From: Candidatus Firestoneibacteriota bacterium
GTDB lineage: Bacteria > Oederibacteriota > D2-FULL-39-29
Reading direction: 5' to 3'
Length of the DNA stretch: 39,898 nt
Assembly: GCA_903928075.1 (NCBI GenBank)
Contig: CAIYPD010000021.1
Span: 1 to 39,898, forward strand
Each line of letters starts with the position of its first letter. Position 1 is the first letter of the stretch. The position numbers were made by a program, and so were the translations under genes. The notes below the pieces were generated by a model. That model made no database searches, was not told where the DNA came from, and saw nothing but the letters and a program-made list of their open reading frames with translations. This document shows positions 9,371 to 22,443 of the stretch, one piece after another.

Positions 9371-9712
9371 CTAGCCTATTGCTTCTTTTCCGGTTTCACC
9401 CGTCCTTATTCTTATACATTCTTTAAGATCCAGGACAAAGATCTTGCCGTCCCCGGTCTCTCCGGTTCTGGCTCCTTTTGTTATAGCATTTATGGTTTTC
9501 TCCAGATAACTGTCGTTTACCGCTATTTCCAGGCGAATCTTCCGGAGTAAATTCCCGGTCTCTTTGATTCCCCGGTAAACTTCGGTAACGCCTTTTTGAC
9601 GGCCATGGCCGAGAACTTCGGAAACGGTTATTAGGTTCACCTCTTCTTGATATAATTCGTGTTTCACATCTTCAAGTTTGTGCGGTTGTATTATCGCGAT
9701 AACTAATTTCAT
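9371..9712 (-). CDS. glnK: PII nitrogen regulatory protein, GlnK type (copy 1)
   Basis: A 113-residue trimeric signal protein that senses ATP/ADP and 2-oxoglutarate and plugs AmtB. The T-loop ([14 protein letters not shown]) keeps Tyr46, but position 51 is Glu, so the classic uridylylated Tyr51 of enterobacterial GlnB/GlnK is missing. The B-loop [10 protein letters not shown] and C-terminal RIRTGETG are intact. It lies 142 bp downstream of amtB-1, so the order is amtB then glnK. It differs from copy 2 at only a few positions. The ribosome site is CGGAGG. Confidence 0.95.
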
Positions 9713-9721
9713 GAAACCTCC

Positions 9722-9850
9722 GTAGGAGTAGTTTATAAAGTTCTTAACGTTTGTAATGTTTGTAAGGTCTAAAATCTTTGAAGGATATTTTTTAGATCCT
9801 CCTTAAACAAAGACGTTATAAACTTTATGAACCTTACAAACCTTATGAAC
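9722..9850. repeat. Intergenic repeat element, copy B
   Basis: The gap between amtB-1 and glnK-1 is an imperfect long hairpin. GTTCATAAAGTTTATAACG on the transcript pairs with CGTTAAGAACTTTATAAAC, with an inner AAGGA/TCCTT stem. The outer arms use the same GTTYATAA and TTTGTAAGG words as copies A and C. The core dyad found in A and C is absent. Its position matches copy C in the paralogous pair. Confidence 0.6.
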
Positions 9851-9854
9851 GGTC

Positions 9855-11081
9855 CTATTCTAGAACCGTGTACGCTGTTTCTTTGTGCTGGGTTAAGTCC
9901 AACCCGACCGCTTCATCCTTTTCACTGACCCTTACTCCGATTAATTTATCTATAACTTTTAAAATTACAAAAGTCACCACCAGTGAATAGACAATAGTGA
10001 AAGACACCGCGGCAAGTTGAATTAAAAACAATTTTGGGTTGCCATTAAATAGTCCGTCCGCTCCTGCGGGATTGATTACTTTACTGGCAAACAAACCTGT
10101 TGCAAGCGCGCCAAAAATTCCGCCAATACCATGCACACCAAATGCATCCAGTGAATCATCATAACCAAATTTCATTTTTACAATGGCCACCATAAGGAAG
10201 CAGATTATAGAAACACAGAAACCTATAATTACCGCAGGAATTACTCCGACAAAACCGGCAGCGGGGGTGATGGCGACAAGTCCAGCAACAGCCCCGGTCA
10301 CCGTACCAAACATCGTAGGTTTTCCATTGTGCAGCCAATCAATAAGAGCCCAGGTTAATCCCGCAGCTGCGGCGGCTGTATTGGTTACCACAAAAGCATT
10401 TACGGAAATACCATTGGCGGCAAGCGCAGAACCGGCGTTAAACCCGAACCACCCAAACCATAGGAGTCCCGCACCAAGCACAGTAAAAGGGAGATTGTGC
10501 GGAGCAACAGCCTGAGGGAAATTCTTTCTTTTGCCGAGATATAGCGCAGTGACAAGAGCAGCTATACCTGCGTTGATGTGAACAACTGTGCCTCCGGCGA
10601 AATCCAGGGCTCCAAGATTTCGAAAAAGACCGCCGACTCCCCAAACCATATGAGCAATCGGATCATAGACAAGGAAGGCCCAAAGAATGCTAAATAAAAG
10701 AAAAGCAGAAAATTTCATTCTTTCCGCAAAAGCGCCGATAATCAACGCAGGCGTAATTATCGCAAACATCCCCTGAAAAATCATAAACGCCTGGTGCGGA
10801 ATGGTTGCGGCATAATCCGCATAAGGCTCAAGCCCTACATCTTTAAGCCCTACCCAGTCTAAAGAACCGATAAAGGAATTTCCCGGAGCGAAAGCTAAAG
10901 AGTAGCCTAAAAGAACCCACTGCAAACCCAGCACGCACATAATAACAAAACACTGCATTAAAACACCAAGAACATTTTTCCTTCTAACCATACCCCCGTA
11001 AAAGAACGCCAGACCCGGGGTCATTAATAACACCATGGCCGCAGCAATCAGAACAAAAGCCGTATCTCCTGAATTTATCAT
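9855..11081 (-). CDS. amtB: Ammonium transporter (copy 1)
   Basis: A 408-residue channel for ammonium uptake in the inner membrane. It carries the signature residues: Asp160 in GALDFAGG, the first pore histidine His168 in VVHINAG, and the second, His317, in AFGVHGIGG. The C-terminal tail DEAVGLDLTQHKETAY is the GlnK-binding type. It starts MINSGDTAFV at an ATG with GAAGGAG upstream. It lies behind two tandem candidate attenuators. It is a close paralogue of the transporter at 11972-13198. Confidence 0.96.
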   Translation of the reverse strand: MINSGDTAFVLIAAAMVLLMTPGLAFFYGGMVRRKNVLGVLMQCFVIMCVLGLQWVLLGYSLAFAPGNSFIGSLDWVGLKDVGLEPYADYAATIPHQAFMIFQGMFAIITPALIIGAFAERMKFSAFLLFSILWAFLVYDPIAHMVWGVGGLFRNLGALDFAGGTVVHINAGIAALVTALYLGKRKNFPQAVAPHNLPFTVLGAGLLWFGWFGFNAGSALAANGISVNAFVVTNTAAAAAGLTWALIDWLHNGKPTMFGTVTGAVAGLVAITPAAGFVGVIPAVIIGFCVSIICFLMVAIVKMKFGYDDSLDAFGVHGIGGIFGALATGLFASKVINPAGADGLFNGNPKLFLIQLAAVSFTIVYSLVVTFVILKVIDKLIGVRVSEKDEAVGLDLTQHKETAYTVLE

Positions 11082-11167
11082 ACATTCTCCTTCTAGAACA
11101 AAATTTCACCGATTTCACCGATTTCAACTCTACTAGATTCCACTGATTTAAGCCAAAAACATTACAA

Positions 11168-11253
11168 AATAAAACATCCGGAGTCCCGCTTCTTTGCGAA
11201 TTACCGGACATCAAGGTCCCAACCTGTGTCTGCCGTCTTTTTACTTTGCCGGC
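11168..11253 (-). promoter_or_regulatory. Candidate ANTAR-type attenuator 3 (proximal to amtB-1)
   Basis: In transcript order there are three parts. First, a hairpin at 11232-11253 has GCCGGC against GACGGC (one mismatch) and a 10-nt loop starting AAAG. Second, a short hairpin GGAC-CTTGAT-GTCC lies at 11206-11219. Third, the terminator at 11174-11211 has an outer stem GATGTCCGG/CCGGATGTT, an internal loop, then TTCGC-AAAGAA-GCGGG, followed by TTTTATTTT. The second and third share GTCC and exclude each other. The terminator hexaloop AAAGAA has A1 and G4, the ANTAR-recognised pattern. From here to the amtB-1 start there is only a small ATTTCACCG repeat (about 11103-11125). Confidence 0.65.
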
Positions 11254-11313
11254 TAATTATTTGCTATTCTCTTATTCTACTCCTGCTTTTCTTTGCTTAA
11301 CTTTACCCCTTAA

Positions 11314-11401
11314 TTAAAATGTCCGGATACCCGCTTCCATGCGAAATCTCCGGACATCAACGTCCTAATTGTTTTCCATTTGCCGGCTTTTTCTTTGCCG
11401 G
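11314..11401 (-). promoter_or_regulatory. Candidate ANTAR-type attenuator 2 (distal, just after glnK-2)
   Basis: The layout is the same as attenuator 3. The first hairpin is CCGGC/GCCGG at 11383-11401 with a 9-nt loop starting AAAG. The second is GGAC-GTTGAT-GTCC at 11352-11365. The terminator at 11319-11357 has a perfect ATGTCCGG/CCGGACAT stem and TTCGC-ATGGAA-GCGGG at the tip; its hexaloop ATGGAA has A1 and G4. The U-tract is short (TTTTAATT). The first hairpin begins about 20 nt after the glnK-2 stop codon. The 65 bp between attenuators 2 and 3 hold no gene and no clear promoter. Confidence 0.65.
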
Positions 11402-11421
11402 TTCTTTTATTTTATTAGTAT

Positions 11422-11763
11422 TTACCCTATCGCTTCTTTCCCTGTCTCACCTGTCCTAATCCTTACGCACTCTTTGAGATCCAGGACAAATATCTTGCCA
11501 TCCCCGGTCTCCCCTGTCCTGGCCCCTTTCGTAATAGCCTTTATAGTTCTTTCCAGATAATCATCATTTACCGCTATTTCCAGACGAATCTTTCTTAAAA
11601 GGTTTCCGGTTTCCTTTATACCTCTGTAAATCTCTGTAACACCTTTTTGCCGACCGTGTCCCAGAACCTCTGAAACGGTTATAAGGTTAACCTCTTCTTG
11701 ATATAATTCGTGTTTTACATCTTCAAGTTTATGCGGCTGTATTATCGCGATAACTAATTTCAT
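11422..11763 (-). CDS. glnK: PII nitrogen regulatory protein, GlnK type (copy 2)
   Basis: A 113-residue PII protein almost identical to copy 1. The start is the ATG at 11761-11763, preceded by GGAGGAGG; a longer upstream reading has no such site. It has the same T-loop with Tyr46 and Glu51, so uridylylation at position 51 is not possible. Differences from copy 1 are conservative and include TEIYRG for TEVYRG and DDYLER for DSYLEK. It lies 208 bp downstream of amtB-2, separated by repeat element C. Confidence 0.95.
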
Positions 11764-11792
11764 GTTTTCCTCCTCCTTCGTCGTCGTCAAAG

Positions 11793-11968
11793 TTCAGAAC
11801 GTTTTTAATGTTAATAATGTTTGTAAAGTTAAAAATCTTTGATAGATATTCCTCCTTACTGTAAAACTTTATCTCGCTATGTCAACTGCCATTGACATAT
11901 AAATATCTTTCCAATCGAGAAAAGCTTTGCTTATGAACTTTATAAACCGTTACAAACCTTATGAACCG
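11793..11968. repeat. Intergenic repeat element, copy C
   Basis: It fills the gap between amtB-2 and glnK-2. The left arm shares AATGTTTGTAA and AAAATCTTTGA words with copy B. The core at 11865-11934 matches copy A, including the dyad ATGTCAA-N6-TTGACAT at 11879-11898 and the CGAGAAAAGCTTTGCTTAT stretch. The outermost dyad pair is T-A in copy A and A-T here, a compensatory change that favours a folded RNA or a two-fold DNA site. Confidence 0.6.
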
Positions 11969-11971
11969 TTC

Positions 11972-13198
11972 TTATTCAAGAACAGTATATGCCGTTTCCT
12001 TGTGCTGAGAAAGATCTAATCCGACTGCTTCATCTTTTTCATTCACTCTTACACCAATTAATTTATCTACAACCTTAAGTATAACAAAAGTAACCACCAG
12101 AGAATATACTACAGTGAAAAGTACCGCCACCAGCTGGATAACGAAGAATTTTGGATTACCGTTTAACAAGCCGTCAGCCCCTGCCGGATTAAGAGCCTTA
12201 CTGGCAAAAAGTCCTAAGGCAAGTACGCCGATAATGCCGCCTATGCCGTGAACACCGAAAGCATCAAGCGAATCATCATAAGCGAATTTGAATTTCACAA
12301 TCGCCACCATAAAGAAACCGATAAGAGAGACGCTGGCACCTATAATAATAGCCGGAACAACTCCGACATAACCCGCCGCGGGAGTAATTGCAGCAAGCCC
12401 GGCAATAGCCCCGGTTATTGTCCCAAACATTGTTGGTTTTCCGTTATACAGCCAGTCTATAAGCGCCCAGGTCAAACCGGCCGCGGCACCGGCCGTATTA
12501 GTCACAACAAAAGCATTCACTGCTATTCCGTTAGCGGAAAGAGCCGACCCCGCATTAAAACCGAACCAACCAAACCAAAGAAGCCCGGCTCCAAGAACCG
12601 TAAACGGTAAATTGTGAGGAGCAACTGCCTGGGGAAAGTTTTTTCTTTTACCAAGATACAGTGCCGCAACAAGCGCGGCTATTCCGGCATTAATGTGTAC
12701 AACAATACCTCCGGCAAAATCCAAAACACCCAAATTCTTTAAAAATCCGCCGCTTCCCCAAACCATGTGAGCAATTGGGTCATAAACAAAAAAAGCCCAA
12801 AGAATAGTAAAAACAATAAACGCCGAAAATTTCATTCTCTCCGCGAAAGCGCCTATTATTAGCGCAGGTGTAATTATCGCAAACATAGCCTGAAAGATCA
12901 TAAAAGCTTGGTGAGGGATGGTTGCCGCATAATCAACATTAGGCTCAAGCCCTACACCTTTAAGACCTATCCAGTCTAAAGAGCCGATAAAGGAATTGCC
13001 CGGAGAAAATGAAAGAGAATATCCAAAAAGAACCCACTGGAGACCCAAAACGCACATGATGATAAAACACTGCATCAGAACGCCCAAAATATTTTTCCTT
13101 CTAACCATGCCCCCATAAAAAAAAGCCAGCCCGGGGGTCATCAAAAGCACCATAGCTGCAGCTATCAGCACAAAAGCTGTGTCTCCCGTGTTAATCAT
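11972..13198 (-). CDS. amtB: Ammonium transporter (copy 2)
   Basis: A 408-residue AmtB paralogue. I choose the ATG at 13196-13198 because AAGGAGG lies just upstream and the product then aligns end to end with copy 1 (MINTGDTAFV). The Asp160, His168 and His317 signatures and the tail DEAVGLDLSQHKETAY are kept. Differences from copy 1 are mostly conservative membrane substitutions. It is the first transporter gene after glutamine synthetase, with attenuator 1 in between. Confidence 0.95.
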   Translation of the reverse strand: MINTGDTAFVLIAAAMVLLMTPGLAFFYGGMVRRKNILGVLMQCFIIMCVLGLQWVLFGYSLSFSPGNSFIGSLDWIGLKGVGLEPNVDYAATIPHQAFMIFQAMFAIITPALIIGAFAERMKFSAFIVFTILWAFFVYDPIAHMVWGSGGFLKNLGVLDFAGGIVVHINAGIAALVAALYLGKRKNFPQAVAPHNLPFTVLGAGLLWFGWFGFNAGSALSANGIAVNAFVVTNTAGAAAGLTWALIDWLYNGKPTMFGTITGAIAGLAAITPAAGYVGVVPAIIIGASVSLIGFFMVAIVKFKFAYDDSLDAFGVHGIGGIIGVLALGLFASKALNPAGADGLLNGNPKFFVIQLVAVLFTVVYSLVVTFVILKVVDKLIGVRVNEKDEAVGLDLSQHKETAYTVLE

Positions 13199-13370
13199 TA
13201 CTTTCCTCCTTTTCCTCAGCTTCTCCGCCACAAAGCATTGACAGTTTTCGCTATGCTCAACTTCTCATAATTCATCTTGTTTTTCTTCTATCTATTTTCT
13301 ATTGTCCATTGCTCAATTGCTCTAACCCGGGAGAAGGTATGTATGAGGGTCTGTTATCTTTAACTGTCTT

Positions 13371-13458
13371 AAAAAAAATGTCCGGATAACCGCAACCATG
13401 CGGACTATCCGGACATCAGTGTCCAAATTTATTCTGCAATATCCGGCTGCATTGCCGG
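13371..13458 (-). promoter_or_regulatory. Candidate ANTAR-type attenuator 1 (between glutamine synthetase and amtB-2)
   Basis: This is the best-formed copy. The first hairpin, CCGGC-AATGCA-GCCGG (13443-13458), has an exact hexaloop with A1 and G4. The second, GGAC-ACTGAT-GTCC (13411-13424), extends with G-U pairs to about 7 bp and also has A1 and G4. The terminator (13378-13416) has stem ATGTCCGGATA/TATCCGGACAT and tip CCGC-ATGGTT-GCGG, followed by eight Us. The second hairpin and the terminator share GTCC. The element starts 30 nt after the synthetase stop. From here to amtB-2 (13199-13370) I see no convincing promoter or gene. Confidence 0.7.
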
Positions 13459-13488: not shown

Positions 13489-15591
13489 TTACAGTTTGAG
13501 CAGTAAATCTTGATACTTCGCCATAGGCCAAAGATCGTTAGCCACAATGGCTTCAGCAAAATCAACTGCTTTTCTAAGTGCAAGCAACCCATCAGAACCT
13601 TCTTCCGCACAGGAAGAGGCTTTTTTGTGAATATCTTGCATCTTTTCCAGTTTTTCCTGATACGCTTCGAACTTGGAAAGGTTCTCTCTTATATCGGCAT
13701 AAGCGGCTTCTATTTCCTTTACTTCGGCCGCAAGAACCTTGGAGTTCACACCGGCATCCTTAACCGAGCTAGCTGTTTCTGCTGTTTTTCTCATATGTTT
13801 AGCAACTGCAGGAAGAATAAGCGTCTTTGCGATATTCTTTGCTGTCTTAAATTCTATGTCCTTTATCTTTACATAAGTTTCAAGTTTAACCTCAATCTTA
13901 GAGTGTAATTCCCTCTCAGAAAGCACCTTGAAGTCCCCGAACATTTTAACCACATCTTTATCCAAGAAAAGCTTCAAAGCTTCCGGTGTGTTCTTGGCGT
14001 TAGGAAGCCCTCTCTTTGCAGCTTCTTTATGCCATTCTTCTGAATAACCGTTGCCTTCAAATCTTACTCTCTTAGTCTCTTTTAAAATATCTTTGAGAAC
14101 AAGAATAGCATTCCCTCTAACATCACCCTTCATATTGGAAAGCCTGTCGTAGAACTCCTTGTACCCGTAAGCCGCGATAAGATTAAATACCGTTGCCGCT
14201 TCCGCGCAGTTCTGGGAAGAACCGACCGCTCTGAATTCAAACTTGTTGCCGGTAAAAGCAATAGGGGAAGTCCTGTTCCTGTCTGAAGTATCTTTAGCTA
14301 CCTTGGGGAGATTCTGAACTCCAAGGCTGATATGCGCAAGCTGTTTTTCTGTAGGCTTAGCAGTTATACCTTCTATCTCATTAAAGAGCGCATTAAGATA
14401 TTCGCCAAGATAGATAGACATAATGGCCGGCGGAGCTTCATTTGCTCCAAGACGGTGATCATTCCCCGCGTCAGCAACGGAAGCCCGGAGAATTCCTCCA
14501 AACTTGTTTACCCCGTAGAGTATCGCCCCTATGGTTATAAGAAAGTTGAGATTCTTTAAGGGAGATTTTGACGGCTCTAGATAATTGATGCCGGTCTCAT
14601 CACCCAGCGACCAATTAAGATGCTTGCCCGAACCATTAACACCCGACATAGGTTTTTCGTGAAGACAGGCTACCAACCCGTGTTTTTCCGCAACTTTATG
14701 CATTATATCCATAAGTTTCAGGTTATTATCAATGCCCAGATTTGATTCATTGTAAAGCGGCGCTATTTCAAACTGGTTCGGCGCTACTTCGTTGTGCCTT
14801 GTTTTTGCAGGTACGCCGCGCCTGTAAAGTTCAATATCAAGCTCTTCCATAAAATTAAGCACTTTACTTTTTATAGAACCAAAATAATGGTCTTCCATTT
14901 GCTGGCCCTTCGCCGGAAGAGCGCCAAAGAGCGTTCTGTTGCAGATGAAAAGATCCGGCCTGGTGTTCCAGAGTTCTTTGTTAAAAAGAAAATATTCCTG
15001 TTCCGGACCGACATAAACTTTAATTCTTTTTGAAGTCCGGTTGCCAAGAAGCCTTTGAAGTTTTATGGCTTCTTCAGTTAACGCGCGCTGTGAGCGAAGA
15101 AGAGGCGCTTTAAGGTCAAGAACCTCCCCTGTCCAGGAAAGAAACACGGAAGGAATAACCAGTGTTTTTGCCTGCTCAGAAACGATAAGGAAGGCGGGTG
15201 AAGTCGGATCCCAGGCAGTATATCCTCTGGCTTCAAATGTGGATCTTATTCCGCCGGAAGGGAAAGAAGAAGCATCAGGTTCGGACTGAATTAATTGTCC
15301 GGGAGACAACCGCTCTATCATCTCACCATCTTCGCCGTAAGAAAGAAAAGCATCATGTTTTTCCGCGGTACCGCCCCTTTGAGGCTGAAACCAGTGAGTA
15401 AAATGAGTGGCCCCGTTTTCCATTGCCCATTCTTTCATGGCATGTGCAACATCTCCTGCAATATCCTGATCGAGGGCTTTGCCTTCCTCGATAGTCTCCA
15501 TAAGTTTTTTGTAGATCTCTTTACTGAGTTTCGCCTTCATGACTTTTTTACTGAATGTCAGTTCGCCAAATATTTCACTTGCCTTGATCAT
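13489..15591 (-). CDS. glnN: Glutamine synthetase type III
   Basis: A 700-residue enzyme making glutamine from glutamate, ammonia and ATP. The length and motifs fit the GSIII class and not the roughly 470-residue GSI. They include an N-terminal extension with ATHFTHWFQPQRGGTAEKHD, a VGPEQEYF metal site, ETIYNESN-like NQFEIAPLYNESN, NGSGKHLNWS in the ATP region and DHRLGANEAPPAI. The C-terminal third is helical, as in GSIII. The ribosome site AGGAGG precedes the ATG. A consensus promoter lies about 120 bp upstream and attenuator 1 follows the stop codon. Confidence 0.95.
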   Translation of the reverse strand: MIKASEIFGELTFSKKVMKAKLSKEIYKKLMETIEEGKALDQDIAGDVAHAMKEWAMENGATHFTHWFQPQRGGTAEKHDAFLSYGEDGEMIERLSPGQLIQSEPDASSFPSGGIRSTFEARGYTAWDPTSPAFLIVSEQAKTLVIPSVFLSWTGEVLDLKAPLLRSQRALTEEAIKLQRLLGNRTSKRIKVYVGPEQEYFLFNKELWNTRPDLFICNRTLFGALPAKGQQMEDHYFGSIKSKVLNFMEELDIELYRRGVPAKTRHNEVAPNQFEIAPLYNESNLGIDNNLKLMDIMHKVAEKHGLVACLHEKPMSGVNGSGKHLNWSLGDETGINYLEPSKSPLKNLNFLITIGAILYGVNKFGGILRASVADAGNDHRLGANEAPPAIMSIYLGEYLNALFNEIEGITAKPTEKQLAHISLGVQNLPKVAKDTSDRNRTSPIAFTGNKFEFRAVGSSQNCAEAATVFNLIAAYGYKEFYDRLSNMKGDVRGNAILVLKDILKETKRVRFEGNGYSEEWHKEAAKRGLPNAKNTPEALKLFLDKDVVKMFGDFKVLSERELHSKIEVKLETYVKIKDIEFKTAKNIAKTLILPAVAKHMRKTAETASSVKDAGVNSKVLAAEVKEIEAAYADIRENLSKFEAYQEKLEKMQDIHKKASSCAEEGSDGLLALRKAVDFAEAIVANDLWPMAKYQDLLLKL

Positions 15592-17229: not shown

Positions 17230-17568
17230 TTAAAGAGCAATATTACCGTGCTCCCCGGTCCTTATTCTGATTGCATCTTCTATGGGATAGATAAATATTT
17301 TTCCATCCCCCTGAAGTCCCGTGCAGGCGGCCTTGCAGATCGCCTCTGCAATAGAATTGACCACCTTGTCATCTACAACTACTTCGAGTCTTACCTTAAG
17401 CATCATTTTTATTTTATAGCTCTTTCCGCGCACCTTCTGCTCAATGCCTTTCTGGTTGCCGTGGCCTTCAAGTTCGGTTATCATCATCCCTGAATAACCT
17501 ACTTTTTCCAGTAACTCGCAAACTTGAGCCACCTTTTCCGGCCTAATTATCGCCTCAATCTTTTTCAT
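17230..17568 (-). CDS. PII-family signal protein next to the PII-fused permease
   Basis: A 112-residue PII protein, clearly distinct from the two GlnK copies. The opening is MKKIEAIIRPEK, the T-loop GHGNQKGIEQKVRGKSY keeps a tyrosine at position 51, and the B-loop is LQGDGKIFIY. The C-terminus RIRTGEHG is canonical. The gene begins 25 bp after the permease-PII fusion. It may form mixed trimers with, or compete with, the PII domain of the permease. It could be modified at Tyr51 if a GlnD-like enzyme exists elsewhere. Confidence 0.92.
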   Translation of the reverse strand: MKKIEAIIRPEKVAQVCELLEKVGYSGMMITELEGHGNQKGIEQKVRGKSYKIKMMLKVRLEVVVDDKVVNSIAEAICKAACTGLQGDGKIFIYPIEDAIRIRTGEHGNIAL

Positions 17569-17593
17569 GATATTCTCCTTTTACGCCTTTAAG

Positions 17594-19477
17594 TCAGATC
17601 GCGTACACTCCCTTTTCTCCGGTACGGACGCGTACTGCTTCCTTGGCATCAAACACAAATATTTTACCGTCACCCACCTCGCCGGTATTGAGAACCTCTC
17701 TCATAATATCCATAATCTTCGGAACATCCCAGTCATTGACGACAATATCCACTTTTATCTTGCTCCGGAATGTCACTCCCGCGCTTTCCAAAAATTTGGT
17801 ATCCTGGCCGTTTTGTCTTCCAAAACCTTTGACTTTTGTAACGGTCATGCCTATGATAAGTTCTTCGTCCTTCAATATCTCCACCAGAATATTTAATTTT
17901 TCCGGACGAATCATCGCGGAAATCATCTTAAAGCCGTAAGTCTTTTTTACTGAAGTAATGATAACATACAGTATGCTGATCAAAGTCCAGCCACCGGCTA
18001 TATAGAAACATATCTTTGCTTCGGCAACTGAATCGGCACTACCGATAGTGTACAGATAAATTATCGCCACAAGCATTCCGGCATTAAAAATGATACCGAG
18101 CACCGGAATTATTCCATGCTTGAAAATATTGAAATCTTTCCTGCCTTTAAAAGCAACGATCGTCCAAACACAGGTAAGCCCGTACAGAACAAATGTTCCG
18201 AAGTTTGAAGCCAGGGCAATACCGGTAAGGCCTACAATCGACTGAACCCCGATAGCGGCGATAACGCAGGAGACAACAACAAGCACCCATATAGCGGTGT
18301 GCGGCGTGCTAAATTTACCGCTCATGAATCCCAAAAAGTCCGGTAATTCACGGTCTTCCGCCATGCCGCAGCTGATACGGACTGCGGTGTTCATGCAACT
18401 GAGAGTTGTGCCGACAATGGCTATCATTACTGTAACTGCGATGGAGATCATAAGGCCGAAGCCCAGGCCGTGAAAAAGGTTATCCCCTATAAGTTTAGCA
18501 AGATCTCCTATGGGCGCGGAAGAAGCCGCGGCGGCAGCCATACCAACCGGAGCAGCGGCCGTACCAACCGCATTACCGATAAGTTTTTCGCTTATCATTG
18601 AACCGGCTGAGAAATATTCTATTAAGTAGGCAAAGATACCCTGGATCACCAGTGAAAGAATAATCGCTTTAGGAATAGTGCTTTTAGGGTTCTTTGTCTC
18701 TGCCGCGAGTGAGGTACAACTTTCAAACCCGACAAGAATAAGAATGGCCAAAGTTGACTGGATAACTACTCCGGTCAAAGAATGCGGTTTGATAATGTCC
18801 CAACCCCCGCTGAACGCCCAGGCGGACGCGTGCTGGGGATTGCTCACCCTGTACCAGATCGCAAGGATGCTGAAAACTACAAGCGTAACCAGTTGAATGA
18901 CATTTATCCAGATGGATGTCTTTGTTGAACCGGTTACTCCCCTGTAGGCAACATATCCGGTTGCAAAAGCAAAGGCTGTTCCAATTACAACAAGCGCGGG
19001 AACTGAAAGCGCGTTGCCAGTGAACTGCTGATAAATATAGCCTATCATATTTGCCATCATGGCGACCATGACACCGGGGTAGACCCAGTAAAACAGGTGT
19101 GTTGCCCATCCCGTTGCGAGTTTCGCAAGCCGGGCAAGGGAAGTAGGCGTAGATTTTCTTTTTTTGTTCTCATCAGACTCAAGAAAAGCTTTTTCCGCGA
19201 AATAGGTTACGCTGGCAAATCCTGCTTCCGGATAGATCTTTGCAAGTTCCGCGTATGAAAATGCAGTAAGAAAGCAGATTCCAAGGGCCAGGACTATTCC
19301 CGACCATATATCGCTGGCTACCGAAGTGCCGTTTGGGGCCGTAGCAGCCGCTTGTAACTGGTAAGTTATCCACAAGAACGCTCCGGGAGCTATTAGAGCC
19401 ATTGCGTTCATTGTCGCGCCAAGAAGACCCAGTGTGGGTTTAAGCTGCGGTGAAAAGTTCGCTCTTGATTCAGCCAT
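17594..19477 (-). CDS. APC-superfamily amino acid permease with C-terminal PII domain
   Basis: A 627-residue fusion. Residues 1 to about 510 are an APC transporter with about 12 hydrophobic helices. It keeps LGLLGATMNAMALIAPGAF in TM1, GFESCTSLAAETKNPKSTIPKA in the middle (family motif for TM6 and the following loop) and RISCGMAEDRELP. Residues 518-627 are a complete PII domain: MISAMIRPEK, a T-loop with GFGRQNGQ but no Tyr51, B-loop VGDGKIFVFD, and VRVRTGEKG. The domain would sit on the cytosolic side and may gate transport by 2-oxoglutarate or ATP status. The substrate is unknown. The order is barrel gene, fusion, free PII, all tightly spaced. Confidence 0.92.
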   Translation of the reverse strand: MAESRANFSPQLKPTLGLLGATMNAMALIAPGAFLWITYQLQAAATAPNGTSVASDIWSGIVLALGICFLTAFSYAELAKIYPEAGFASVTYFAEKAFLESDENKKRKSTPTSLARLAKLATGWATHLFYWVYPGVMVAMMANMIGYIYQQFTGNALSVPALVVIGTAFAFATGYVAYRGVTGSTKTSIWINVIQLVTLVVFSILAIWYRVSNPQHASAWAFSGGWDIIKPHSLTGVVIQSTLAILILVGFESCTSLAAETKNPKSTIPKAIILSLVIQGIFAYLIEYFSAGSMISEKLIGNAVGTAAAPVGMAAAAASSAPIGDLAKLIGDNLFHGLGFGLMISIAVTVMIAIVGTTLSCMNTAVRISCGMAEDRELPDFLGFMSGKFSTPHTAIWVLVVVSCVIAAIGVQSIVGLTGIALASNFGTFVLYGLTCVWTIVAFKGRKDFNIFKHGIIPVLGIIFNAGMLVAIIYLYTIGSADSVAEAKICFYIAGGWTLISILYVIITSVKKTYGFKMISAMIRPEKLNILVEILKDEELIIGMTVTKVKGFGRQNGQDTKFLESAGVTFRSKIKVDIVVNDWDVPKIMDIMREVLNTGEVGDGKIFVFDAKEAVRVRTGEKGVYAI

Positions 19478-19507: not shown

Positions 19508-20203
19508 TTATATATTAATATCAAGCTGCGTGGTAAAGGTGTTGTTAGCATTAACTTTGTTGTTATTAAATATCACATAACCAAAAATAATGCTAGTAGC
19601 GGGCGTAAAGGCGTACGAACCGCCTATACTCAAGCTTCCGTAAGAACTCATTCCTGACGCGTAGTCAACTGACAACCATATTTTTTCGCTGATCGCTTTG
19701 TCCCATGACGCAATAAATCCGGTATTGGCAGCGGCTCCGGTTTCGGTCACAAGTAATTTATCGTTGCCGGAATAATAACCGAGAGAAATCCTTCCGATCG
19801 GATCGAAGGTTTTTGCTATCACAGCATAGATTATATTATAGTCGGTAACATTCACTTGTGTACCAAAATTAAATATCCCGGCTGCGATAGCAGGAACGGC
19901 TCCTGCTTCAGGAAAACCGAATTTCAGATTAAAAAAAAGCGGATTAACGGAAGGTTCCACCGCATCAATACCAATTTCAAGTTCTTTCATTAAACCATAG
20001 GTAAGGCCTACATCGGTACCGAACGCATAAGGTTTAACCGTATTGCTTTCTATAGAAAAATAGTTATCTATCCCGAGATGGAAGGTCCCCGCGCCCTGGA
20101 TATCCGTTGAGGGATTCCAGATCTGTGTTGAGGGTGTCGCAAAAACGAAGACGCCGGTAACTAGCGCTGCCAGAAGTATTTTTGAAATGTCTATTATTTT
20201 CAT
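19508..20203 (-). CDS. Predicted outer-membrane beta-barrel protein
   Basis: A 231-residue protein with a signal peptide (cleavage near VFAT) and alternating polar/aromatic strands: GTFHLGIDNYFSI, DVGLTYGLMKELEIGIDA, GRISLGYYSGN, IWLSVDYASGMS, SLSIGGSYAF and SIIFGYVIFNNN. About 10-12 strands are likely. The C-terminus ends DINI and lacks the usual terminal aromatic. No family name is recognised. It is the first main gene of the operon with the PII-fused permease, so it may let amino acids or amines cross the outer membrane. Confidence 0.65.
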   Translation of the reverse strand: MKIIDISKILLAALVTGVFVFATPSTQIWNPSTDIQGAGTFHLGIDNYFSIESNTVKPYAFGTDVGLTYGLMKELEIGIDAVEPSVNPLFFNLKFGFPEAGAVPAIAAGIFNFGTQVNVTDYNIIYAVIAKTFDPIGRISLGYYSGNDKLLVTETGAAANTGFIASWDKAISEKIWLSVDYASGMSSYGSLSIGGSYAFTPATSIIFGYVIFNNNKVNANNTFTTQLDINI

Positions 20204-20463: not shown

Positions 20464-20970
20464 TTATTTCATAAAATATTTTTTTGTTCTTTCTGCGATC
20501 TTTTTTCTCGTCTTTATGATCATTGGATGAGAAACTCCCGTTTTTCCGGCTATTTCCCTGATTGTATAGCCTTCGGATAATAACAAAAACACCTTTTTCT
20601 CTTTTTCTTCGAGTAAACCTGATAATTCCTGCATAAAAACTTCATCTTCCGGCGGTTTTTCTTCTTTTGCAACAAAATATTCCTTATCCCTGCCGCTATT
20701 ACTGTATTTCTTATCATAAATACTGATATTTCTGCTTTTTAATTCCATATTCCTTAAATAGTTTCTAAGATAATAGTAACAACCCTGAAGAAGATAGCTG
20801 TCATTTTTCCCCAGAAAAGTATTTAGTTTATATTCTTTCCATAAATGAAGAACAGCCTCCTGGTACAGGTCATCATGGTCAACATAGGCATATTTGCCGT
20901 TTAGTTTATATGCAATTCCCTTTATACCGGCAGATATTTTCTTTACTCTTTCAGGGAAACCGGTTTCCAT
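20464..20970 (-). CDS. Sigma-70 family (ECF-like) protein
   Basis: A 168-residue protein. Region 2 is visible at residues 30-75 (DHDDLYQEAVLHLWKEY, then YYYLRNYLRN). The C-terminal region 4 helix-turn-helix is LLSEGYTIREIAGKTGVSHP. There is no anti-sigma gene beside it. It follows the ANTAR gene after two hairpins with U-tracts. The ribosome site is AAGGAAGG. It may direct a stress or nitrogen-related regulon; its target promoters are not known. Confidence 0.75.
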   Translation of the reverse strand: METGFPERVKKISAGIKGIAYKLNGKYAYVDHDDLYQEAVLHLWKEYKLNTFLGKNDSYLLQGCYYYLRNYLRNMELKSRNISIYDKKYSNSGRDKEYFVAKEEKPPEDEVFMQELSGLLEEKEKKVFLLLSEGYTIREIAGKTGVSHPMIIKTRKKIAERTKKYFMK

Positions 20971-21000: not shown

Positions 21001-21079
21001 AAAAAAAAACGTCCAAAGACATTTTTGTCCCCGGACGTCAAAGTCACCGCCTATTTACAGGCTCAATCCCGTAAACAGG
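21001..21079 (-). promoter_or_regulatory. Divergent ANTAR-type attenuator candidate 4 (leader of the sigma-like gene)
   Basis: A terminator stem at 21009-21038 has ACGTCC/GGACGT outside and GGGGAC-AAAAAT-GTCTTT inside, with a hexaloop and nine Us after it. A short hairpin GAC-TTTGAC-GTC at 21034-21045 overlaps its 5' arm, as in attenuators 1-3, and keeps G4. The upstream hairpin is CCTGTTTAC/GTAAATAGG (21071-21079 with 21050-21058), or alternatively GCCT-GTAAAT-AGGC. A1 is not kept in these, so it is a weaker case. Confidence 0.45.
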
Positions 21080-21086
21080 TTTTTAA

Positions 21087-21125
21087 TAAAAAAACCTTTT
21101 GAATGCATCTTTCTCATTCAAAAGG
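21087..21125 (-). terminator. Terminator after the GAF-ANTAR gene
   Basis: A perfect 11-bp stem, CCTTTTGAATG/CATTCAAAAGG (21115-21125 with 21095-21105), is followed by TTTTTTTATT. It lies about 90 bp past the ANTAR stop codon. Confidence 0.85.
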
Positions 21126-21216
21126 CCCCAATGCCGCTTCCTTACTTTTTTATTATAGCGTACTTCACCTTATTTGTCAAGAGCTCGGCCTGTCCGCGGC
21201 TCAAAATAAGGGACGC

Positions 21217-22443
21217 CTAGCGTGAAGAAGAATTTTTCATTTCAAAAGAAAGTATGACCGCCTCCGCGACTTCTTTCATCGATTTTCGCAAATCCATGGA
21301 TTTTTTATGAATCAATTTATGGGCTTCTTCTTCTCCTATATTTAATTCCTTCATTAAAAGCCCTTTCGCTTTTTCAACAAGTTTTCTTGTTGCAAGCGCC
21401 TCTTTTGCCGCCGTTACTTCTTCTTTTAAATTTGCTTTTTCAATGGCAGAAGCCGCCTGATTGGCTATAGCCTGAAAAACTTCGATTTCCTCAGTTGTAA
21501 ACAAATGTTCTTTTTTTGTGTAGATATTAATAACTCCGATCACTTTTTCGTTTAGCATCATCGGTACTGAAAGCAAAGAAACTGCTCCTTCCTTTTTTGC
21601 GATATCAGGGAACATATAAGTCGGTTCTGCCGCCACCTCCAAAACCGCCCCCGGTTTTTTTTCTTTTACCACGCGTCCGCTTATTGAGCGGTCAATACGA
21701 ACATTTGGTTTTTTTATATAGGCTTCCGCCGAACCTTCCGAAGAAGCTATTTTTAATTCATTGTTTTTCTCATCAAGGAGCATGATAGTACATATCTTTG
21801 AATCCATAACATGCGCGGTAAGGCTTACAATCAATTTGAGTATTTCTTTAAGATAGCTTTCTGAGACCAGAGATTTGCTTATTTTTGAAAGCAGGTCAAG
21901 CTGTTTTGCTTTTTTCTCCATCTCTTCATAGGTAATAGCATTTTCTATAGCGGTCCCCAGATACCCGGCCAGAGTAAAAAGCAGTTTCACCTGGCGCTCG
22001 GGGTATTTGTGCGCTTTTTTATGATGCAGATTTATGACGCCGACAAGCTGGCCTCTTGAAAGTATGGGAATAGAAAGAAAAGCTTCGTAAGTATCTTCCG
22101 GAAGAGAGGTAAAAGCCCTGAAATTTAGTTCTTTGTAGGCTTCTTTTTCGATGGCCAGGGGTTTTTTCTGTTTCGCGACAAAACCGGTTATTCCTTCTCC
22201 TAGCTTGAGTTTAATTCTTCCCAATACATTTTTATGCGGATTTTTTGAAGCCCGCAGTATCAATTCCTGGTTTTTCCTGTCATAAAGATAAATAAGGCAG
22301 GCATCCGCGCCAATAAACGCGGAAGCGACTTCGCTTATATGATCTAAAACTTCGGATAATTCCAAACTACTGCTGATCTTTTGGGAAATCTGATGCAGGA
22401 TCTTTAATTCTTCTTTATCATTATATATATTTTTTTGCTTCAT
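21217..22443 (-). CDS. GAF-GAF-ANTAR protein, probable RNA-binding antiterminator
   Basis: A 408-residue regulator. GAF domain 1 spans about residues 10-170 (VLDHISEVASAFIGADACLI, GEGITGFVA, IPILSRGQLVGVINLHH). GAF domain 2 spans about 182-335 (RSISGRVVKEKKPG, SVPMMLNEKVIGVINIYTK). The ANTAR domain is at 345-402, with KEALATRKLVEKAKGLLMKE and MDLRKSMKEVAEAVI. ANTAR domains bind dual hairpins with A1/G4 hexaloops and prevent termination. There is no receiver or NIT domain, so the GAF modules probably sense a small molecule. Candidate RNA targets lie in the same window. It has its own promoter and apparently almost no 5' leader. Confidence 0.9.
   Translation of the reverse strand: MKQKNIYNDKEELKILHQISQKISSSLELSEVLDHISEVASAFIGADACLIYLYDRKNQELILRASKNPHKNVLGRIKLKLGEGITGFVAKQKKPLAIEKEAYKELNFRAFTSLPEDTYEAFLSIPILSRGQLVGVINLHHKKAHKYPERQVKLLFTLAGYLGTAIENAITYEEMEKKAKQLDLLSKISKSLVSESYLKEILKLIVSLTAHVMDSKICTIMLLDEKNNELKIASSEGSAEAYIKKPNVRIDRSISGRVVKEKKPGAVLEVAAEPTYMFPDIAKKEGAVSLLSVPMMLNEKVIGVINIYTKKEHLFTTEEIEVFQAIANQAASAIEKANLKEEVTAAKEALATRKLVEKAKGLLMKELNIGEEEAHKLIHKKSMDLRKSMKEVAEAVILSFEMKNSSSR

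Follow-up and report, generated by a model that had tools for sequence, protein, structure and literature searches.

A classical PII domain fused to an APC-superfamily permease and paired with a divergent free PII protein

Results

An APC permease carries a complete PII domain at its C terminus

A gene in the 39,898-nucleotide contig analyzed here (the window) encodes a predicted transporter of amino acids or related nitrogen compounds whose chain ends in a classical PII domain, and this domain very probably still senses ATP and 2-oxoglutarate. The reading we hold with moderate confidence, drawn from sequence comparison and structure modeling, is a permease under PII control: the fused domain would serve as sensor and trimer core, would be coupled to the transporter through TM12, and would have a dedicated partner in the free PII protein encoded beside it. 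It is favored because the fused and free PII proteins have opposite residue profiles and the joint between permease and PII has a fixed length. The features of the locus are collected in Table 1.

Table 1. Features of the fusion locus and the neighboring nitrogen genes, by position in the window
Feature	Position	Strand	Basis or remark
glnK, copy 1	9371..9712	-	Pfam
amtB, copy 1 (ammonium transporter)	9855..11081	-	Pfam; two ANTAR-like leaders, 11365-11350 and 11219-11204
glnK, copy 2	11422..11790	-	Pfam
amtB, copy 2 (ammonium transporter)	11972..13231	-	Pfam; ANTAR-type leader, 13390-13458
Type III glutamine synthetase (GSIII)	13489..15591	-	Pfam; between the amtB-glnK pairs and the fusion/free PII genes
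Free PII gene, divergent subtype	17230..17568	-	112 aa; 101 bits (Pfam); 25 bp after the fusion
APC amino-acid permease with C-terminal PII domain (fusion)	17594..19477	-	ORF, Pfam, alignment, structure model
PII part of the fusion, residues about 516-627	17594..17932	-	Ligand residues kept; T-loop degenerate
Outer-membrane beta-barrel	19508..20203	-	Modeled, about 12 strands; weak FapF/COG4313-like match; no Pfam family
Small sigma-70-like protein, operon head	20464..20970	-	Below Pfam cut-off
Fusion-operon leader	21008..21180	-	Promoter, ANTAR-like hairpins, terminator
GAF-GAF-ANTAR antitermination regulator	21217..22443	-	ANTAR domain, 69.1 bits

The fusion ORF starts with ATG and encodes 627 residues without an internal stop. 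Its permease part (residues about 10-510) matches Pfam AA_permease_2 over residues 48-473 (73.9 bits, cut-off 27) and AA_permease (60.4 bits, cut-off 24.6); PF00909, the Amt/Rh channel family, is absent, and none of the NCBIfam named transporter subfamilies reached its cut-off for this part. Residues 517-621 match P-II (PF00543; 72.2 bits, cut-off 25) over profile positions 2-102 of 102, and the domain carries the B-loop TGEVGDGKIFV and the C-terminal RVRTGEKG. These scores rule out a chance overlap of ORFs and, with the ORF itself, bear out the initial annotation of an intact permease joined to a complete PII domain with its B-loop and C-terminal signature. A monomer AlphaFold model has a mean pLDDT of 83 and a pTM of 0.82, with low confidence in the T-loop and C-loop (pLDDT about 46-57). 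The permease part folds as a single APC domain whose best PDB match is the CAT homologue GkApcT (6f34; Foldseek E 9e-13), with 17% identity and a TM-score of 0.80 by target length. The helix of residues 481-514 (TM12) runs directly into PII strand 1 (residues 516-523).

The fusion probably arose once and is widespread

Scanning 84,980 species genomes yielded at least 80 loci. Among the matches listed were 38 fused permeases including that of the window, so that at least 37 further fusions exist, each free of stop codons. A frameshift joining two genes had been raised as the way in which the fusion might prove artificial; it is excluded by these 37 intact fusions from other genomes with the same permease-PII order and by the continuous fold of the model. 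The clustering of all 38 intact fusions in a single clade likewise rules out an assembly artifact.

The fusion records among the matches listed are labeled as about nine phyla: Nitrospirae, Planctomycetes/Phycisphaerales, Deltaproteobacteria (Myxococcota in NCBI ranks), Syntrophaceae/Thermodesulfobacteriota, Fibrobacteres, Elusimicrobia, Omnitrophota, Spirochaetaceae, and FCPU426; individual labels may be wrong because all of the records are metagenome assemblies. Locus L081, labeled Proteobacteria, has contig coordinates identical to those of genome G031 of the host phylum, and its label is probably wrong.

In a permease-only tree (79 rows) a branch of SH-aLRT 100 sets off all fused rows together, and the sole "unfused" row within the fused clade is cut by the end of its contig. 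In a tree built without the T-loop columns, the fused PII domains likewise form one clade (support 99) that excludes free PII and GlnK. As judged from these trees, a single event probably attached a classical PII to the TM12 end of an APC permease. Within the host phylum the fusion occurs in 8 of 45 genomes, relatives there including records labeled candidate division FCPU426; it is absent from the compared genomes of the window's own genus, family, and order. The window's copy groups near Phycisphaerales/planctomycete copies in the permease tree, apart from the other FCPU426 copies. This position and the absence from close relatives suggest acquisition by horizontal transfer. The plasmid collection contained only distant permeases, with a best identity under 60%.

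Kup-like potassium transporter genes adjoin the fusion cluster in L035, L038, and L043, and Kdp-like genes adjoin it in L041, as judged by eye from N-terminal sequence. In a MAG labeled Syntrophaceae (L049), genes resembling nif (nitrogenase-cofactor) genes, again judged by eye, precede the fusion. The L066 locus has the fusion gene in two tandem copies followed by a glutamine-synthetase-like gene. Among unfused relatives in Chloroflexi, Bacteroidetes, and Ignavibacteriae (L078, L082, L089, L090, L101, L110, L113), several have PP2C-type phosphatase-, Ser/Thr kinase-, and glutamine-synthetase-like genes nearby; BLAST comparison covered the synthetase-like match, the phosphatase and kinase being judged by appearance. 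Such neighbors perhaps reflect a different control of the same permease.

The fused domain keeps the PII ligand site and has a degenerate T-loop

The side-chain ligands of Mg-ATP and 2-oxoglutarate in GlnK include Gln39, Lys58, Lys90, Arg101, and Arg103, and a free C terminus has been stressed for 2-oxoglutarate binding (PMC8395244). Lys58, Gly87, Asp88, Gly89, Lys90, and Arg101 are present in 38/38 fused domains, Arg103 in 37/38, Arg38 in 36/38, and Gln39 in 32/38. The window's domain has Arg38, Gln39, Lys58, Lys90, Arg101, Arg103, and the B-loop GDGK. All 38 domains have a free C terminus and end at the usual position in A[VILM]. The proposal in the initial annotation of a retained ATP/2-oxoglutarate sensor is supported by these near-invariant residues and free C termini; the loss of nucleotide-binding residues that might have undercut it is not seen, nearly all of them being kept across the 38 aligned domains. 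Threonine occupies position 39 in 6/38 domains, all of the FCPU426 subclade, where it may weaken Mg/2-oxoglutarate binding.

The T-loop is another matter. The span from Arg38 to Lys58 ranges from 16 to 29 residues in the fused domains and is nearly constant at 21 in free PII and GlnK. Tyr46, Arg47, and Tyr51 are lacking from the fused T-loops; Tyr51, the uridylylation site, is not universal in PII proteins outside proteobacteria. Mean pairwise identity at the T-loop tip is 0.17 for fused domains, 0.41-0.46 for free PII, and 0.56 for GlnK-like proteins. Core identity is similar across groups (0.62-0.65 fused, 0.56-0.58 free).

A decayed T-loop, the Q39T substitution in some rows, and unfused relatives that manage without a PII domain at 63-66% permease identity are what ordinary domain accretion would produce, with PII a passive or decaying tail without a regulatory role. 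We regard accretion as very improbable, since the core ligand residues are near-invariant in 38 sequences whose records carry labels of about nine phyla, the fused core is as well conserved as that of free PII or better, and no loss of the PII domain is seen inside the fused clade of the permease tree.

A divergent free PII protein accompanies the fusion

The coordinates and Pfam match of the gene downstream bear out the free PII annotated there, across a gap of 25 bp (17569-17593). It belongs to a distinct subtype with altered nucleotide-site residues: His36, Arg38 replaced by Lys, Ser, Thr, or Asn, and often Met29. The window's copy has Asn in place of Arg38, a 21-residue T-loop, and both Arg47 and Tyr51. 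The T-loop is conserved in the subtype, with Arg47 in 29/38, Tyr51 in 32/38, and the 21-residue span in 36/38 proteins. The fused and free proteins thus have opposite profiles: a ligand site kept with a degenerate T-loop in one, and a conserved T-loop with an altered nucleotide site in the other.

Of the 37 other fusions, 26 have a free-type PII gene no more than about 200 bp away, as do the window and G030. It is farther away in L041, L052, L053, and L081 and is not adjacent in L062, L066, L067, and L070; the L063 locus is cut by the contig end. Fusions without an adjacent free PII belong to the FCPU426-type subclade, the one in which six fused domains have Q39T. Eight genomes whose unfused permease branches outside the fused clade contributed 16 PII genes; none of these is of the free type, and nearly all are GlnB-like. 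The pairing is strong but not exclusive, because some genomes of the host phylum have a free-type PII and no fusion. Distances among free PII proteins correlate with those among permeases (Mantel r 0.36; 5 of 2000 permutations), a correlation that may reflect shared ancestry alone. The constancy of this companion makes a functional pair, or mixed trimers with the fusion, a reasonable if tentative reading of these sequences.

GlnB and GlnK form mixed trimers in Escherichia coli. With this precedent, the conserved pairing with a divergent-type free PII and the restriction of the conserved T-loop to the free partner could be taken to mean that the fused PII is a membrane anchor or transceptor, tethering free PII (or GlnK) as mixed trimers that would inform other targets of transporter or ligand state instead of gating transport. 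Such a role is quite unlikely: almost all ligand residues of the fused domain are conserved, beyond the needs of a tether, and the FCPU426 subclade retains the fusion without an adjacent free PII.

The TM12-PII joint has a constant length

Unfused relatives stop shortly after TM12 with a short tail, and the PII domain of the fusions begins at this point. Across all 38 fusions, residues 505-523, which run from the last part of TM12 through PII strand 1, are constant in length; the same holds for 440 of 594 segments of 19 residues. The fixed length is compatible with, and not proof of, a rigid joint because other well-packed stretches are also without indels. Surface residues specific to the fused permeases amount to ten scattered positions and form no clear cytoplasmic docking patch.

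The PII fold places the N terminus of strand 1 on the same face as the T-loop, and the joint would therefore be expected to aim the T-loops at the membrane. This geometry would suit an AmtB-GlnK-like plug, in which a T-loop of the fused or free PII enters the inward-facing vestibule of the permease in the ADP-bound state and is withdrawn by Mg-ATP and 2-oxoglutarate. The free PII would be suited to the task by its conserved Arg47, Tyr51, and loop span, and plugging by the free protein, as distinct from the fused domain, is a possibility. As a whole the plug is unlikely: the fused T-loops, variable in length, poorly conserved, and without the three signature residues, do not resemble a pore plug, and, unlike the Amt pore, the vestibule of an APC permease is not a narrow channel. 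T-loop gating in the AmtB-GlnK manner is disfavored for the fused domain because its T-loop is degenerate and variable in length.

The fusion lies in a nitrogen cluster with candidate ANTAR leaders

All four PII domains of the genome are in the window, namely those of the fusion, the free PII protein, and the two glnK products. The idea that the fusion stands in place of AmtB-GlnK did not hold; a replacement is ruled out by the two complete amtB-glnK pairs in the same cluster. These tandem pairs (9371-13231) are near-identical, pointing to a recent duplication or gene conversion. The beta-barrel gene is conserved beside both fused and unfused permeases (L041, L059, L052, L051, L038, L071, L074-L076, L100). 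In L041 and L044, a gene similar to the sigma-like gene at the operon head was seen by eye in the upstream position. The neighbors, an outer-membrane channel, amtB, and GSIII, favor the import of a nitrogen source as the direction of transport.

In known ANTAR regulons, an ANTAR protein acts with tandem hexaloop hairpins (A1, G4) that overlap terminators, and PII and ammonium transporter genes are among the antitermination targets (PMC3369931). The fusion operon has a consensus promoter, TTGACA-17-TATAAT (21180-21152), followed by ANTAR-like hairpins at 21079-21050 and 21046-21031 that overlap a terminator at 21039-21008. The motif of the second (P2-like) hairpin, GGACNNTGAYGTCCGG, occurs four times in the window against 0.11 expected in shuffles, with two copies ahead of amtB1 and one each ahead of amtB2 and the fusion operon. 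The amtB2 leader, in which overlap with a terminator is also present, is the only one whose loops both fit the A1/G4 rule; the second loops of the amtB1 and fusion-operon leaders have G4 and lack A1. A stringent scripted scan for hairpin-terminator overlap found only the amtB2 leader in the window and none in the other fusion loci, and an Rfam scan of the window gave no match at gathering scores. ANTAR antitermination is likely for amtB2, the one leader fitting the rule in both loops, and plausible for amtB1 and the fusion operon. The GAF-GAF-ANTAR regulator and the four leaders form a probable local nitrogen regulon.

A model for metabolite control of the permease

In the PII-controlled permease that we favor, the PII domains would trimerize beneath the membrane, either as three fused subunits or as fused and free subunits together. 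ATP or ADP and 2-oxoglutarate would occupy the clefts between PII subunits, and the ligand-induced change would pass through a stiff TM12-beta1 connection to the permease, the free PII contributing its conserved T-loop. Nitrogen shortage, with high ATP and 2-oxoglutarate, would turn transport on, and ample nitrogen would turn it off. Transcription of the fusion operon is probably controlled together with amtB by the GAF-GAF-ANTAR regulator.

A stricter version, offered as a tentative possibility, makes mixed trimers obligatory, with fused subunits as ligand sensor and stiff TM12 link and free subunits supplying the T-loop that contacts the permease. If so, sensing and target binding, the two tasks of PII, would be split between two proteins that together make up a two-part, metabolite-gated transporter, and an APC permease would be made trimeric by its own regulator.

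Discussion

No nitrogen and energy sensors are more widespread than the PII proteins, which are known as free-standing partners that dock onto target proteins. With the sensor incorporated in an amino-acid transporter, PII control of transport could be studied in one chain, and the fusion family would show how PII can act without the usual T-loop. The fusion would also link organic-nitrogen uptake to the ammonium system (amtB, glnK, glutamine synthetase) in many uncultured phyla. APC permeases, PII proteins, PII control of transporters, and an APC protein with a nucleotide-binding tail (KimA) are already known. Full-text searches of open-access papers aimed at PII fusions returned no account of one with a permease; an earlier mention in subscription papers or preprints is possible. 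New relative to the open-access literature searched are a classical PII inside a transporter chain, its wide distribution, and its pairing with a specialized free PII.

The closest functional comparison is GlnK-AmtB, where a classical PII also acts on a membrane transporter, with the same ligand residues and in the same gene cluster. The present system differs in that the PII is covalently fused and the transporter is from the APC superfamily instead of Amt; the fused T-loop has neither the plug arginine (Arg47) nor the uridylylated tyrosine (Tyr51) nor a fixed 21-residue length. In SbtA-SbtB and other cyanobacterial transporter/PII-like pairs, a PII-fold regulator is encoded beside the transporter. 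This gene arrangement is shared here, but SbtB is a separate, PII-like protein (for context, PMC10991534), whereas the present PII is of the classical kind and belongs to the same chain as the transporter. KimA, an APC-superfamily K+ importer (PDB 8b70), resembles the fusion in joining an APC core to a C-terminal cytosolic domain for a nucleotide signal, c-di-AMP; it is dimeric, and its domain and ligand are unrelated to PII, which normally forms trimers. GkApcT and the CAT transporters (PDB 6f34, 5oqt) provide the best structural match to the permease part and have no cytosolic sensor domain. The candidate leaders recall the known ANTAR regulons (PMC3369931) in combining an ANTAR protein with ANTAR-like tandem small hairpins that overlap terminators, the loops fitting in full upstream of amtB2 only, with the difference that the target operon here contains the fusion and its partners.
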